A stretch of 64,000 nt of DNA. Origin: Burkholderia catarinensis. GTDB taxonomy: Bacteria > Pseudomonadota > Gammaproteobacteria > Burkholderiales > Burkholderiaceae. Both the position numbers and the translations under genes were made by a program. Under the pieces are notes generated by a model that searched no databases, was not told the origin of the DNA, and worked only from the letters and a program-made list of their open reading frames with translations. Numbering within the stretch: position 1 is the first letter of the stretch; each line of letters opens with the position of its first letter. This document shows positions 4,021 to 33,350 of this stretch, piece after piece. The DNA lies in contig NZ_MDEQ02000008.1 of NCBI RefSeq assembly GCF_001883705.2, positions 186,001 to 250,000 on the forward strand, in the 5' to 3' direction.

Positions 4021-5777
4021 TCGCGTACCTCGCCGGGGTGAAGCGCCGGCCGGGCCGGCTCGGGCTCGGGCGCCGTCGCAGGCGGCTCGTTTTGCGGGAC
4101 GAAATCATCCTCTCGCCCCGGCGGGCTGTATTCGTATGCCCAGCGGTAGACGACGGGCAGCGCGGCGCCCCAGTTGCCGTGCACGGGCGGCGTTTGCGGC
4201 GTCTGCCATTCCAGCGTAGTGGCCCGCCACGGGTTGCCGTCGGCGCGCTTGCCGTGCGCGAGGCTCCACGCCAGGTTGAAAAGGAACAGCAACTGCGCGA
4301 CCGCGACGATCAGCGCAACGACGGTGATGAAGGTATTGAGCGTCTGCGCCGAATGCGGAATGAAGCTGAAGCCCTCATACGCGTAATACCGTCGCGGCAT
4401 GCCCAGGATGCCGAGATAGTGCATCGGGAAGTAGATCGCATAGGTGCCGACGAAGGTGACCCAGAAGTGCAGGCGCCCGAGCGTGTCGTTCAGCATGCGG
4501 CCCGTCACCTTCGGATACCAGTGGTAGAGACCGCCGAACACCACCAGGATCGGCGACACGGCCATCACCATATGGAAGTGCGCCACCACGAAATACGTGT
4601 TCGACAGCGGAATGTCCACGCTCACGTTGCCGAGGTAGAGCCCGGTCAGCCCGCCCAGGACGAAGGTGCTGATGAAGCCGATGGCGAACAGCATCGGCAC
4701 GGTCAGGTGGATATCGCCGCGCCACAGCGTCAGCACCCAGTTGTAGACCTTGAGGGCGGTCGGAACGGCGATGATGAGCGTGGTGGTGGCAAAGAAGAAG
4801 CCGAAGTACGGGTTCATGCCGGCGACGAACATGTGGTGCGCCCAGACCACGAAGCTCAGCGCGCCGATGATGACGATGGCCCACACCATCATCCTGTAGC
4901 CGAAGATGCTCTTGCGCGCGTGCGTGCTGATGAGGTCCGACGCGATGCCGAAGGCCGGCAGCGCGACGATGTAGACCTCCGGATGCCCGAAGAACCAGAA
5001 CAGGTGCTGGAACAGCAGCGGGCTGCCGCCGGCATGCTTGAGCGTCTGCCCCATCGACACCACGGCCGGTATGAAGAAACTGGTGCCGAGCGTCCTGTCG
5101 AGCAGCATCATCACCGCCGACACGAACAGCGCCGGAAACGCCAGCAGCGCCATGATGGTCGCGATGAAGATGCCCCACACCGTGAGCGGCATGCGCATCA
5201 GCGTCATGCCGCGCGCGCGCGCCTGCAGCGTCGTGGTGACGTAGTTCAGGCCGCCCATCGTCGCGGCGACGATGAAGATCGCCAGCGACACCAGCATCAG
5301 CACGATGCCCCATTCGACGCCCGGCGTGCCCGGCAGGATGGCCTGCGGTGGATACAGCGTCCAGCCCGCGCCGGTCGGCCCGCCCGGCACGAAGAAGCTT
5401 GCCGTCAGCACCAGCACGGCCAGCAGGTAGACCCAGTAGCTCAGCATGTTGAGAAACGGGAACACCATGTCGCGCGCGCCCAGCATCAGCGGGATCAGGT
5501 AGTTGCCGAAGCCGCCCAGGAACAGCGCCGTCAGCAGGTAGATCACCATGATCATCCCGTGCATGGTGACGAACTGGTAGTAGTGGTTCGCGTCGATGAA
5601 GCTGAACTTGCCCGGAAAGCCGAGCTGCAACCGCATCAGGTCCGACAACACGAGACCGACCAGGCCGATGGCGATGGCCGTCAGCGCGTACTGCACGGCG
5701 ATGACCTTGTGGTCCTGGCTCCAGACATAGCGGGTCCAGAAGCTTTGCGGGACGTGGTCGGTGTGCGCGTAGGGCAT
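4017..5777 (-). CDS. ctaD: cytochrome c oxidase subunit I (type A1 heme-copper oxidase)
   Basis: Catalytic subunit reducing O2 to water and pumping protons; inner membrane, twelve core helices. Visible ligands and motifs: HGMIMVIYLLT (low-spin heme His), WFFGHPEVYIVALPAFGI (CuB His, cross-linked Tyr and the D-channel Glu that marks type A1), HHMF (two CuB His) and HFHMVM (heme a3/a His pair). Length is 586 residues from the ATG at 5777, which has GGAG upstream. An in-frame ATG at 5807 would extend the protein by ten residues, but that codon lies inside the terminal repeat of an inserted element and lacks a good ribosome site. The C-terminal tail ends in Pro/Glu-rich sequence and overlaps the next gene by 4 bp. 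Confidence 0.97.
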   Translation of the reverse strand: MPYAHTDHVPQSFWTRYVWSQDHKVIAVQYALTAIAIGLVGLVLSDLMRLQLGFPGKFSFIDANHYYQFVTMHGMIMVIYLLTALFLGGFGNYLIPLMLGARDMVFPFLNMLSYWVYLLAVLVLTASFFVPGGPTGAGWTLYPPQAILPGTPGVEWGIVLMLVSLAIFIVAATMGGLNYVTTTLQARARGMTLMRMPLTVWGIFIATIMALLAFPALFVSAVMMLLDRTLGTSFFIPAVVSMGQTLKHAGGSPLLFQHLFWFFGHPEVYIVALPAFGIASDLISTHARKSIFGYRMMVWAIVIIGALSFVVWAHHMFVAGMNPYFGFFFATTTLIIAVPTALKVYNWVLTLWRGDIHLTVPMLFAIGFISTFVLGGLTGLYLGNVSVDIPLSNTYFVVAHFHMVMAVSPILVVFGGLYHWYPKVTGRMLNDTLGRLHFWVTFVGTYAIYFPMHYLGILGMPRRYYAYEGFSFIPHSAQTLNTFITVVALIVAVAQLLFLFNLAWSLAHGKRADGNPWRATTLEWQTPQTPPVHGNWGAALPVVYRWAYEYSPPGREDDFVPQNEPPATAPEPEPARPALHPGEVRE

Positions 5778-6080: not shown

Positions 6081-7225
6081 GGTTGTGCCGCGCTGCTGGC
6101 GGCCGGCCCGCCTTGCGCCTTGATATAGGCCACCAGCGCGGTCAGCTCCTGCTCGCTCAGGTCGAAGTGCGGCATGATCGGGGAGAAGCCTTTCACGACA
6201 CGGGCCGTCGGGTCGCGGATGAACGCGCGCAGATAGGCGTCGTCCACTTTCGCGGTGCTGCCGTCGGCCATCGTTTCGGTCTTGCCGTACAGCCCCTTCC
6301 AGGTGGGGCCCACACGCGGCGTGCCGTCCACGGTATGGCAGGCGACGCAGCCCTTGGCCGCGGCGAGCGCCTTGCCCTGGTCGGCCAGCGCCTGGGCGCT
6401 GCCGCCCGCGGCGGCGGATGCGGCCTGTACCTTGGCCTGCTGCCGCAGCGCGAACGTGCTCTGCTGCGCCAGCCAGCGCGAGAACGACGCTTCGTCTTCC
6501 ACCACCACCACGCCGCGCATGTTGGAGTGTCCGATACCGCAGAGCTGCGCGCACAGGATGTCGTAACGCCCTGCCTTGGTCGGCGTGAACCAGAAGGTGG
6601 TCACCATGCCGGGCACCATGTTCATGCGCGCCCGGAACGGCGGGACGTAGAAGTCGTGCAGCACGTCGCGCGACCGTGTCAGGACCTGGACCGGCCGGTT
6701 GAGCGGCAAGTGCACCTCGGGCGTGTCGATCAGGTAGTTGTCACGGCCGTTGGGGTCGCCGGGGTTCAGGCCGAACGGGTTGTCGTTGCTGATGTAGCGC
6801 ACGTCCGTCGTGCCCAGCTTGCCGCCGGGGCCGGCAAAGCGGAAGCGCCATTGCCATTGCTGGCCGAGCACTTCCATCCGCAGCACGTTGCTCGGCGGCC
6901 GTATGTAGTCCGCGTAGACGAACAGGCCCGGCGCCAGCAACGCGGCCACGCCGACAGCGGTCAGGCCGATCAGCCACCATTCCAGCCGCTTGTTGTGAGG
7001 CTCGTAGGCAGCGCGATGACCGCTGCGGTGGCGGTAGCGCACCAGTGCGACCACGATGAACAGGTTGATCGCGATGAAGAATACGCCGGTGATCACGAGC
7101 GTGATCGTCAGCATGTCGTCCATGCGCACCCAGTTCGACGCGATCGGCGTGATCCACCACGGACTGGCAAAGTGAAACCCCACCGCCAATACGATGATCA
7201 GGAACAGAGCAATCGCAAGCGCCAT
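6077..7225 (-). CDS. ctaC: cytochrome c oxidase subunit II fused to cytochrome c (caa3 type)
   Basis: CuA-carrying subunit that accepts electrons at the periplasmic side, 382 residues. Two N-terminal helices (about 1-20 and 40-65, then 85-105) precede the cupredoxin domain with WQWRF and the CuA motif CAQLCGIGHSNM near residue 223. A C-terminal cytochrome c domain follows, with CVACH near residue 290 and the Met ligand probably in SPIMPHF. Start ATG at 7225 has GAGG upstream; the longer open frame to 7444 lacks family similarity. The TAG stop (6077-6079) lies inside the end of the palindromic element, so the final residues may have been altered by its insertion. First gene of the oxidase cluster. 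Confidence 0.95.
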   Translation of the reverse strand: MALAIALFLIIVLAVGFHFASPWWITPIASNWVRMDDMLTITLVITGVFFIAINLFIVVALVRYRHRSGHRAAYEPHNKRLEWWLIGLTAVGVAALLAPGLFVYADYIRPPSNVLRMEVLGQQWQWRFRFAGPGGKLGTTDVRYISNDNPFGLNPGDPNGRDNYLIDTPEVHLPLNRPVQVLTRSRDVLHDFYVPPFRARMNMVPGMVTTFWFTPTKAGRYDILCAQLCGIGHSNMRGVVVVEDEASFSRWLAQQSTFALRQQAKVQAASAAAGGSAQALADQGKALAAAKGCVACHTVDGTPRVGPTWKGLYGKTETMADGSTAKVDDAYLRAFIRDPTARVVKGFSPIMPHFDLSEQELTALVAYIKAQGGPAASSAAQP

Positions 7226-31800: not shown

Positions 31801-32013
31801 CTGGCTACCCCGCGCCGTGCGTTTTTGTCGAACGTCTTTTGCGAATCTTACTCAATCGGCGGCATCGTTCAAATTACCGGTGCGCGTTTGATTGAAAAAC
31901 CACGTTTGTTACCGTTTCTCGTCAGACGTAATGGCCATTCTCGACACGGAAGCGCAATCGACGTCGGCGCCCAGGGTGACGTGGCCGGCTTTTCATCCGG
32001 GTCAGGGTATGCC
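31801..32013. other. divergent promoter region: LuxR gene and histidine leader
   Basis: Non-coding, relatively AT-rich between 31830 and 31930. The hisC leader promoter must lie here; no clear consensus -35/-10 pair stands out. Confidence 0.4.
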
Positions 32014-32106
32014 ATGATGCGGCGCATGAAGATCCGAAACATCACGACCTCGCTGCACCATCACCACGGACGCCCTCTGTTGCGCCGTGGTTCGTTTCGC
32101 ATCTAG
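32014..32106 (+). CDS. histidine leader peptide
   Basis: 30 codons (ATG 32014; in-frame ATGs also at 32017 and 32026), reading MKIRNITTSLHHHHGRPLLR in its middle and ending GSFRI. The four consecutive His codons are CAC-CAT-CAC-CAC (32056-32067). Typical size and placement for a his-type leader ahead of a biosynthetic gene. The true start is uncertain because no strong Shine-Dalgarno is seen. Translation stalling at the His run when charged tRNA-His is scarce should control the downstream attenuator. Confidence 0.85.
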   Translation: MMRRMKIRNITTSLHHHHGRPLLRRGSFRI

Positions 32107-32167
32107 TCATTGCATCGGGACCTTTCCCGATCAAGACGACAACCAAGGCGCCTCCGGCGCCTTTTTT
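32063..32167 (+). promoter_or_regulatory. histidine transcription attenuator
   Basis: Mutually exclusive pairings are visible. Segment 1 ACCACGG (32063-32069, inside the His codons) pairs with CCGTGGT (32085-32091) of segment 2. Segment 2 GCGCCGTGGTT (32082-32092) pairs with AACCAAGGCGC (32141-32151, segment 3; 10 of 11 bp). Segment 3 AAGGCGCC pairs with segment 4 GGCGCCTT followed by a T run, making the terminator. An additional hairpin ATCGGG/CCCGAT (32114-32131) lies between. This is the classical 1:2, 2:3, 3:4 attenuator layout. Confidence 0.85.
32145..32167 (+). terminator. attenuator terminator before hisC
   Basis: AAGGCGCC (32145-32152), loop TCC, GGCGCCTT (32156-32163) then TTTT. A textbook intrinsic terminator located between the leader peptide stop (32106) and hisC start (32238). 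Confidence 0.9.
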
Positions 32168-32237
32168 GTTTTCTGCCGCATTAAAAACCTGCTGCGCCGA
32201 TCCATCGGATCCATCGATAACGTACGGAGTGCTTTCA

Positions 32238-33350
32238 ATGCAACCACCCTGGAAAGAAGTCTCCTTGTCGGATTTGCCGCTCAGGGAAGATCTCAGGTCG
32301 CAGCACGCGTACGGGGCGCCGCAGCTCGACGTGCCGATTTGCCTGAACGTCAACGAGAATCCCTATCCGCCGTCGCCCACGCTCGTCGAGCGCATCGCGG
32401 CCGCGGTGGCCGACGCGGCGCGCGCGGCGAACCGCTATCCCGACCGCGACTTTGCCGAACTGCGAGCCCATCTGGCCGCCTACCTGACGCACGACACCGG
32501 CGTATCGGTCGACGCGTCGAGCGTCTGGGCAGCCAACGGCTCGAACGAAGTGATCCAGCAGATTCTCCAGGCCTTCGGCGGCCCGGGGCGTTCGGCGCTG
32601 GCCTTTACGCCCGCGTATCCGATGTATGACGAATACTGCCGGACGACCTTCACGCGCCTGCATACGTTGCCGCGCACCGACGATTTCGCGCTGGATCTGG
32701 ATCAGGCGCTCGACAGCATCCGCGCGCATCGGCCGAGCGTGATCCTGCTCACTTCGCCGAACAATCCGACCGGGACCGCACTGCCTGTCGACGACATCCG
32801 CGCGATACTCGACATCGCGCCGGGCGTGGTCGTCGTCGACGAAGCCTATGCGGAGTTCCGGCGCCACGGGGTCCGCAGCGCGGTAACGCTGCTGCCCGAC
32901 CATCCGCGGCTGATCGTCACCCGCACATTGAGCAAGGCGTTCAAGTTCGCGGGCGGCCGCGTCGGGTATTGCGCGTGTGCGCCGGCGATCGTGGCGGCGC
33001 TGAAGCTGGTTCGACTGCCGTATCACCTGTCCGCTTTCACCCAGGCGGCTGCGTGCGCGGCACTGGTCGCGCGTGACGAGATGCTGTCGCAGGTTGAAGC
33101 GATCAAGACCGAGCGCGACGCAACCGTTTGCTGGCTGCGCAGCCTGGGGCTCGCAGTGGCCGATTCGGACGCCAACTTCGTGATGTTCGGCGAGTTTGCG
33201 GATCGCCACCGGATATGGAGCGGGCTCCTGCGCCACGGGGTCCTGATTCGCGAATCCGGGCCGCCGGCATACCTTCGCGTATCCATCGGCACCGCGGCGG
33301 AGATGGCCGCGTTTCGCGCGGCCCTGCTTGACGTGATGGCGCCCGGGTAA
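32238..33350 (+). CDS. hisC: histidinol-phosphate aminotransferase
   Basis: 370-residue PLP-dependent class I/II aminotransferase converting imidazole-acetol phosphate to histidinol phosphate in histidine synthesis. Visible: CLNVNENPYPPSP (HisC N-terminus), YPDRDFAELRAHLA, AANGSNEVIQQIL, SPNNPTGT, VVVDEAYAEF and the PLP lysine in TRTLSKAFKFAGGRVGY. Stand-alone copy, not with hisG/hisD, but carrying a histidine attenuator, which independently supports the histidine-specific assignment over aromatic aminotransferases. Start at ATG 32238 with CGGAG upstream. Confidence 0.94.
   Translation: MQPPWKEVSLSDLPLREDLRSQHAYGAPQLDVPICLNVNENPYPPSPTLVERIAAAVADAARAANRYPDRDFAELRAHLAAYLTHDTGVSVDASSVWAANGSNEVIQQILQAFGGPGRSALAFTPAYPMYDEYCRTTFTRLHTLPRTDDFALDLDQALDSIRAHRPSVILLTSPNNPTGTALPVDDIRAILDIAPGVVVVDEAYAEFRRHGVRSAVTLLPDHPRLIVTRTLSKAFKFAGGRVGYCACAPAIVAALKLVRLPYHLSAFTQAAACAALVARDEMLSQVEAIKTERDATVCWLRSLGLAVADSDANFVMFGEFADRHRIWSGLLRHGVLIRESGPPAYLRVSIGTAAEMAAFRAALLDVMAPG

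Follow-up and report, generated by a model that had tools for sequence, protein, structure and literature searches.

A probable histidine attenuator before a stand-alone hisC in Burkholderia catarinensis, and the Burkholderiales leader family to which it belongs

How is a hisC gene that stands alone controlled, and do other genes share its control? The question is raised by a locus of Burkholderia catarinensis contained in a stretch of 64,000 nt (contig NZ_MDEQ02000008.1, positions 186,001–250,000; hereafter the window), where an earlier note, made from the letters alone, had proposed a complete histidine attenuator preceding a second hisC. Our comparative analyses indicate that the region 31990–32237 is very probably a ribosome-mediated transcription attenuator, which would turn on the gene when charged tRNA-His is scarce. 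This leader appears to be one member of a Burkholderiales family that also precedes genes for truncated histidyl-tRNA synthetase-like proteins (mini-HisRS) and for GNAT acetyltransferases, as though several genes for histidine starvation shared a single switch.

The element lies on the forward strand, with a leader peptide of 26 residues, three mutually exclusive helices and a terminator within 32026–32167. The leader open reading frame (MKIRNITTSLHHHHGRPLLRRGSFRI, 32026–32106, stop codon TAG) contains four consecutive His codons, CAC CAT CAC CAC (32056–32067), the putative regulatory codons. Segment 1 (32063–32073) pairs with segment 2 (32082–32096) through ACCACGG (32063–32069) and CCGTGGT (32085–32091), a helix extended by 32071–32073 with 32082–32084. 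Segment 2 can also pair with segment 3 (32138–32152), forming an antiterminator of 13 pairs interrupted by one mismatch and one bulge (32082–32096 with 32138–32151). In turn, segment 3 can pair through AAGGCGCC (32145–32152) with GGCGCCTT (32156–32163) from segment 4 (32156–32167), which together with its U run (32162–32167) constitutes an intrinsic terminator. The His codons overlie segment 1, the stop codon of the leader is located just 3′ of segment 2, and a hairpin (32106–32137) separates segments 2 and 3. The end of the terminator is followed, after 70 bases, by the ATG (32238) of an intact stand-alone hisC (32238–33350), with a Shine-Dalgarno-like GGAG at 32226–32229. The four-His leader, the pairing segments and the T run described in the earlier note are thus all in place, and the locus shows the features of the attenuator class: clustered His codons in a short reading frame, exclusive 1:2, 2:3 and 3:4 pairings with an intrinsic terminator, and a gene of the same pathway downstream. 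In all six frames of the window, only one further run of four His codons is found, at 6500 within a 605-codon open frame. Incidentally, stretches of three or four His codons at 4563–5106 and 6500 lie in long open frames and do not resemble leaders.

The leader peptide, the alternative helices and the terminator are conserved as a set across relatives, which supports a histidine attenuator preceding a lone hisC in Burkholderia. A DNA search of 61 genomes of the genus, including that of the window, produced matches in 25, corresponding to 18 hisC leaders, six leaders of a second family and one chance terminator. A covariance model built from 23 of these 24 leaders was then applied to an even sample of 398 family genomes, taken from a larger group, in each of which no more than eight candidates were scored; at E ≤ 1e-9, it retrieved 54 matches in 49 genomes. 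These matches precede hisC (25), a split HisRS-like gene (19), a GNAT gene (7) or decayed genes (3; loci L071, L089 and L090). Additionally, the leader was present at all of the eight named or plasmid hisC loci examined (L100–L104, L183, L210 and L211), a count that does not include the plasmid hit H42. The conservation of leader and hairpins, which had been named beforehand as a test, and the presence of the same leader upstream of related hisC genes, for which a search had been advised, are therefore borne out, and the named relatives support the suspected assignment to Burkholderia; conversely, the leader is not tied to hisC alone, as the note had implied. Five other loci (L032, L095, L096, L098 and L099) were discarded as chance matches, sharing only the GGCGCC terminator. 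The Rfam covariance models gave no match in the window at the gathering score and, with E values up to 10, five weak matches around the element, all of them unrelated, so that it does not fall within Rfam His_leader (accession RF00514).

The leader peptide was evaluated by one rule in 65 loci, which returned 59 leaders, 53 of them with a run of at least three His codons and 40 with a length of 26 residues; both His codons are used (133 CAC and 106 CAT). Among the six loci lacking a leader by this rule (L072, L081, L089, L090, L093 and L184), L072 does possess one with interrupted His codons. We then aligned 57 of the 59 leaders (excluding L084 and L104) on the ATG equivalent to 32026, which revealed a common promoter register, in which a TT(T/C)(T/A)CA-like box occupies −36 to −31 and is separated by 17 bases from an extended −10 region whose last base is −8 (46 leaders carry T at −16 and G at −15, 47 carry A at −9 and 46 carry T at −8). 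In the window, these elements correspond to TTTTCA (31990–31995) and, 17 bases downstream, CATGAT (32013–32018), extended by TG at 32010–32011. The upstream ATGs at 32014 and 32017 fall inside the −10-like box and, because this box is conserved, the leader most likely starts at ATG 32026, and not at 32014 as first assigned. Likewise, the conserved box ends seven bases before this ATG and the leader peptide is therefore probably leaderless, with transcription starting at or beside the A of the ATG, as judged from the promoter register.

Folding with ViennaRNA assigned −16.3 kcal/mol to the 1:2 helix and −13.5 kcal/mol to the terminator, whereas the 2:3 helix was the predicted minimum, from five of five starting points, once segment 1 was masked and segment 4 was not yet made. 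The region 32011–32172 is more stable than expected (z-score −4.85), with none of 200 shuffles being as stable. An alignment of 52 of the 58 distinct leaders, leaving out six with diverged geometry (L084, L092, L185, L206, L207 and L208), showed paired cells at 96.2% for 1:2, 94.7% for the outer 2:3 helix and 98.6% for 3:4, compared to 21–54%, 32–51% and 26–74%, respectively, when the partners were slid; the 2:3 control was done with the whole 2:3 structure, itself 78.8% paired. Two-sided changes were found in 86 cells, a number not reached in any of 500 shuffles, and fall for the most part in the hairpin separating segments 2 and 3, where 62.8% of the cells are paired.

From this anatomy, transcription would start at ATG 32026 or beside it, and translation would begin directly on the leaderless AUG. 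With ample His-tRNA, the ribosome would pass the four His codons and reach the stop codon at 32104, covering segment 2 and allowing the 3:4 terminator to form before hisC; with His-tRNA in short supply, it would stall at 32056–32067 over segment 1, so that 2:3 would pair, the terminator would be blocked and hisC would be transcribed. If the leader were not translated, 1:2 would form, leaving 3:4 free, and transcription would end.

Several observations weigh against this model. When segment 1 was masked in the presence of segment 4, the terminator was the minimum for two of three starting points and the antiterminator for one, and a separate folding under the same conditions also gave the terminator as the minimum; because the terminator often wins in this situation, switching can only work through the order in which the segments are transcribed. 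The regulatory helices hardly vary, and the covariation scores of 1:2 and 3:4 were matched by 219 and 13 of 500 shuffles, respectively, so that covariation does not prove pairing for these two helices; scant covariation is nevertheless expected, because segments 2 and 3 must each suit two partners. Additionally, six of the 65 loci have no leader by our rule, and L023 and L024 contain only three His codons in the region of the run. Finally, the genome contains three further HisC-like genes (E ≤ 3.1e-32, 34–37% identity to hisC), and the gene under study may be redundant; it is thus one of at least four, rather than the second hisC that the note had supposed.

The other HisC-like genes, together with the decay of several relatives (L071, L089 and L090), would also agree with a constitutive terminator accompanied by a decoy reading frame, with hisC being silent or at a fixed low read-through and the His codons being irrelevant. 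We find this hardly credible, since the His run and the antiterminator are kept in many genomes and before three kinds of genes, and hisC is intact and passes all the model cut-offs. It is also conceivable that the leader RNA or its peptide acts mainly in trans, as a small RNA or a working peptide released by termination, with the control of hisC being secondary. Such dual roles exist, as illustrated by rnTrpL and peTrpL from Sinorhizobium meliloti in the sections consulted of PMC7298713, and residues of the leader peptide are kept in related loci. However, RNA segment 2 accounts for the conservation of the peptide in its 3′ part, the 5′ part differs from family to family, and the antiterminator pairing, which is not needed for a role in trans, is kept; a main function in trans is hence quite improbable, and we retain transcription attenuation responding to tRNA-His charging as the most probable function of the element.

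The product of hisC, a histidinol-phosphate transaminase of 370 residues and PRK03317 type, reached 577.6 bits with NF002877 (PRK03317; cut-off 409) and 287.6 bits with TIGR01141 (cut-off 276.55). The best 80 loci listed from species genomes included five from Burkholderiales (73–94% identity) and 75 that are actinobacterial by title (56–64%), and eight HisC sequences from Burkholderiales formed a single branch (support 100/100) in a tree lacking an outgroup. The resemblance to actinobacterial HisC points to a likely transfer from actinomycetes, a reading that rests on the contrast between 56–64% identity to actinomycetes and 34–37% to the other copies in the genome. In Paraburkholderia ginsengisoli (L211), the leader and hisC are on a 214-kb plasmid and are flanked by genes of IS66-type insertion sequences, which suggests that the unit moves.

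Six of the seven GNAT genes from the family search belong to one kind of acetyltransferase (L077, L081, L084, L085, L086 and L093; Pfam Acetyltransf_1), whereas the seventh is of another kind and lacks a clear leader peptide (L091). The genes in L077 and L084 are short (98 and 119 codons), and L081 and L093 have degenerate leaders. As separate observations, the hisC leaders in L073 and L079 resemble those of the mini-HisRS family, ending in GSLRP, as if leaders had been swapped between genes; in L089 and L184, the leader is fused directly to the second part of mini-HisRS, lacking the terminator and the first part, an arrangement that appears decayed; and L094, a weak match to the model (40 bits), contains a short reading frame (MNHHHVGKHVAVGKTS) and a terminator before an apparent CsoR-type regulator gene.

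The mini-HisRS genes, all of them outside the window, are preceded by a related leader (e.g., MELRNVPTRLHHHHGRLSSRRGSLRP in L035) and change reading frame. Their first part, of about 30 codons (e.g., MTMIRGTRFIVGKEAAQIRALESQFRSYLH), is closed by a stop codon, and the second continues in the +1 frame, with 187–207 codons in 26 loci. This second part contains the class II synthetase motifs RCYRYERPQAGRYREF and GFGIGAERL and can be aligned with HisRS of solved structure over two stretches, lacking the intervening part and the C-terminal domain; alone, it passes Pfam tRNA-synt_His (49.5 bits, cut-off 25) and does not reach the cut-off of TIGR00442 (hisS; 108.1 versus 286.75 bits). Both parts were present in 27 loci (L034–L039, L066–L069, L072, L074–L076, L078, L080, L082, L087, L088, L092, L180, L181, L185 and L205–L208), comprising the 19 from the family search, L035, two plasmids (from P. 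largidicola and, as L181, the root-nodule bacterium Paraburkholderia sprentiae) and five from four other Burkholderiales families; L071, L089, L090 and L184 had been dropped before this count because they lack the first part. In L180 and L181, RefSeq annotates the +1-frame part alone, as an ATP phosphoribosyltransferase regulatory subunit, leaving the first part unannotated. We found mini-HisRS in one of 398 genomes from the phylum, where the other 22 matches were weaker (52–58 bits) and in frames of 412–782 codons, and in five of 300 genomes from the order, including the one from the phylum sample. In the genome of B. catarinensis itself, the search for mini-HisRS retrieved only the housekeeping HisRS, and a search for the prfB pattern produced a single match, no more than the control.

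The junction between both parts is strictly conserved: (C/A)(G/A)GAG(C/T)-TNN-CTT-CA(T/C) occurs in all the 27 loci, which were found through the leader, the second part or the RGTRF motif, none of which demands a junction. A stop codon follows directly in 26 loci, and four codons later in L087. The ratio of non-synonymous to synonymous codon differences, summed over related and hence not independent pairs, was 0.73 for the first part in frame 0, versus 9.0 and 12.2 in the other frames (27 loci), and 0.35 for the second part in the +1 frame, versus 8.7 and 8.9 (26 loci, L037 being too short). The first part is therefore under coding constraint in frame 0 and the second in the +1 frame only, and we rejected a pseudogene interpretation except for L037, which has a further break in the second part. 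The slip codon is invariably CTT, a codon used for 73 of the 517 Leu in the rest of these genes. The predicted Shine-Dalgarno-like pairing is about −6 kcal/mol, compared to −8 for E. coli prfB, in which this sequence occupies the same place as the mini-HisRS GGAG; in L067, which is one G short, it is −2.1 kcal/mol. The codon after CTT is always His (CAC in two loci), whereas elsewhere in mini-HisRS there are two His in 5,769 codons (none of 783 in first parts and two of 4,986 in second parts), in comparison with 8 of 446 in the housekeeping HisRS from the genome of the window.

An unshifted relative is encoded by the Pseudomonas silesiensis plasmid pPL1 (L182). It has 211 residues, none of them His, shares 39% identity over 75% of the query length, and is preceded by its own, different His leader (MNTSTQFFALHHHQSHCRLGALLRVENTIS) and a terminator. 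It aligned with both mini-HisRS parts in one contiguous register in the nine loci tested; first-part alignments as high were found in none or one of 300 shuffles for eight loci, and in ten of 300 for L206.

These features suggest that the conserved junction directs programmed +1 frameshifting at a hungry His codon. With uncharged tRNA-His, the ribosome would pause while CUU occupies the P site and the Leu tRNA could re-pair with UUC, after which translation would continue in the +1 frame; with charged tRNA-His, the His codon would be read and, in 26 loci, translation would then stop. The main contending explanation, which concerns only these mini-HisRS relatives, is reinitiation, with the second part starting independently at an AUU that overlaps the stop codon, eight bases downstream of GGAG. 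This combination of GGAG, AUU and overlapping stop occurs in 24 of the 27 loci. Conversely, in L036 and L039 the His codon CAC turns AUU into ACU, which is not a start, yet His and an intact second part are kept; L087 has AUC, with the stop four codons later; and the first part shows coding evolution in frame 0 and aligns contiguously with the start of the Pseudomonas relative. We consequently see reinitiation as unlikely. Frameshifting is the reading that we favor, with some reserve, as part of a response to histidine starvation in which two stacked sensors would monitor the charging of tRNA-His: the attenuator and a hungry-codon +1 frameshift (GGAG, four bases, CUU, CAU/CAC) that would complete mini-HisRS only when His-tRNA is scarce, a nearly His-free protein that could still be made under such conditions.

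If true, this would be the first natural regulatory use of starvation (hungry-codon) frameshifting. In the section dealing with it, Atkins et al. (2016; PMC5009743) considered that such frameshifting could yield starvation-specific trans-frame proteins, of which no examples were known, and the mini-HisRS loci, present in several Burkholderiales families, make this open question directly testable. In PMC3711429, a cluster named "tRNA synthetase" comprises 215 frame transitions under the label of phase variation and may or may not include mini-HisRS. Among the papers listed by our searches on frameshifted HisRS, hungry-codon frameshifting, GeneTack frameshifts, HisRS paralogues or leaderless attenuators, we recognized none on this element. 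Likewise, these searches listed no description of a histidine attenuator from Burkholderia or other betaproteobacteria, in agreement with the suggestion that this one was possibly undescribed, although an earlier mention is possible, as the work of Vitreschak et al. (2004) on proteobacterial attenuation is known to us via reference only. Together, our results confirm the observation of a probable histidine attenuator, a variant of known attenuation and here a betaproteobacterial one unmatched by Rfam, on a lone hisC and with a promoter register predicting a leaderless peptide; much of its interest lies in where the leader family leads, as it predicts which other genes answer histidine shortage.

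One of the closest known systems is the his operon leader from E. coli and other gammaproteobacteria, which, in the part of PMC9413887 devoted to it, comprises a His-rich leader peptide, alternative helices and an intrinsic terminator. The Burkholderiales leader shares this plan, and its association with a histidine-pathway gene, but differs in lacking an Rfam match, in its sequence and peptide, in preceding a single gene instead of an operon, in being predicted as leaderless and in being found also before mini-HisRS and GNAT genes. In bacilli, His leader peptides precede hisZ and hisS paralogues (Naville and Gautheret, 2010; PMC2965389, in excerpt), thus sharing a leader of histidine codons before HisRS-like genes; however, those leaders are from Firmicutes, and the excerpt claims no sequence likeness to proteobacteria and describes no frame change. 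As in the trpL attenuator from S. meliloti, whose transcript has the leader peptide ATG at its 5′ end according to the same sections of PMC7298713, transcription would start here at the leader ATG, although the amino acid there is tryptophan and the leaderless start of our element is predicted from the promoter register only. Finally, mini-HisRS resembles prfB, with its autoregulatory +1 frameshift (PMC5009743, in part), in the CUU slip codon, a Shine-Dalgarno-like sequence in the same place and a short first frame; unlike in prfB, CUU is followed by a His codon and not by a stop, and the signal would be uncharged tRNA-His.
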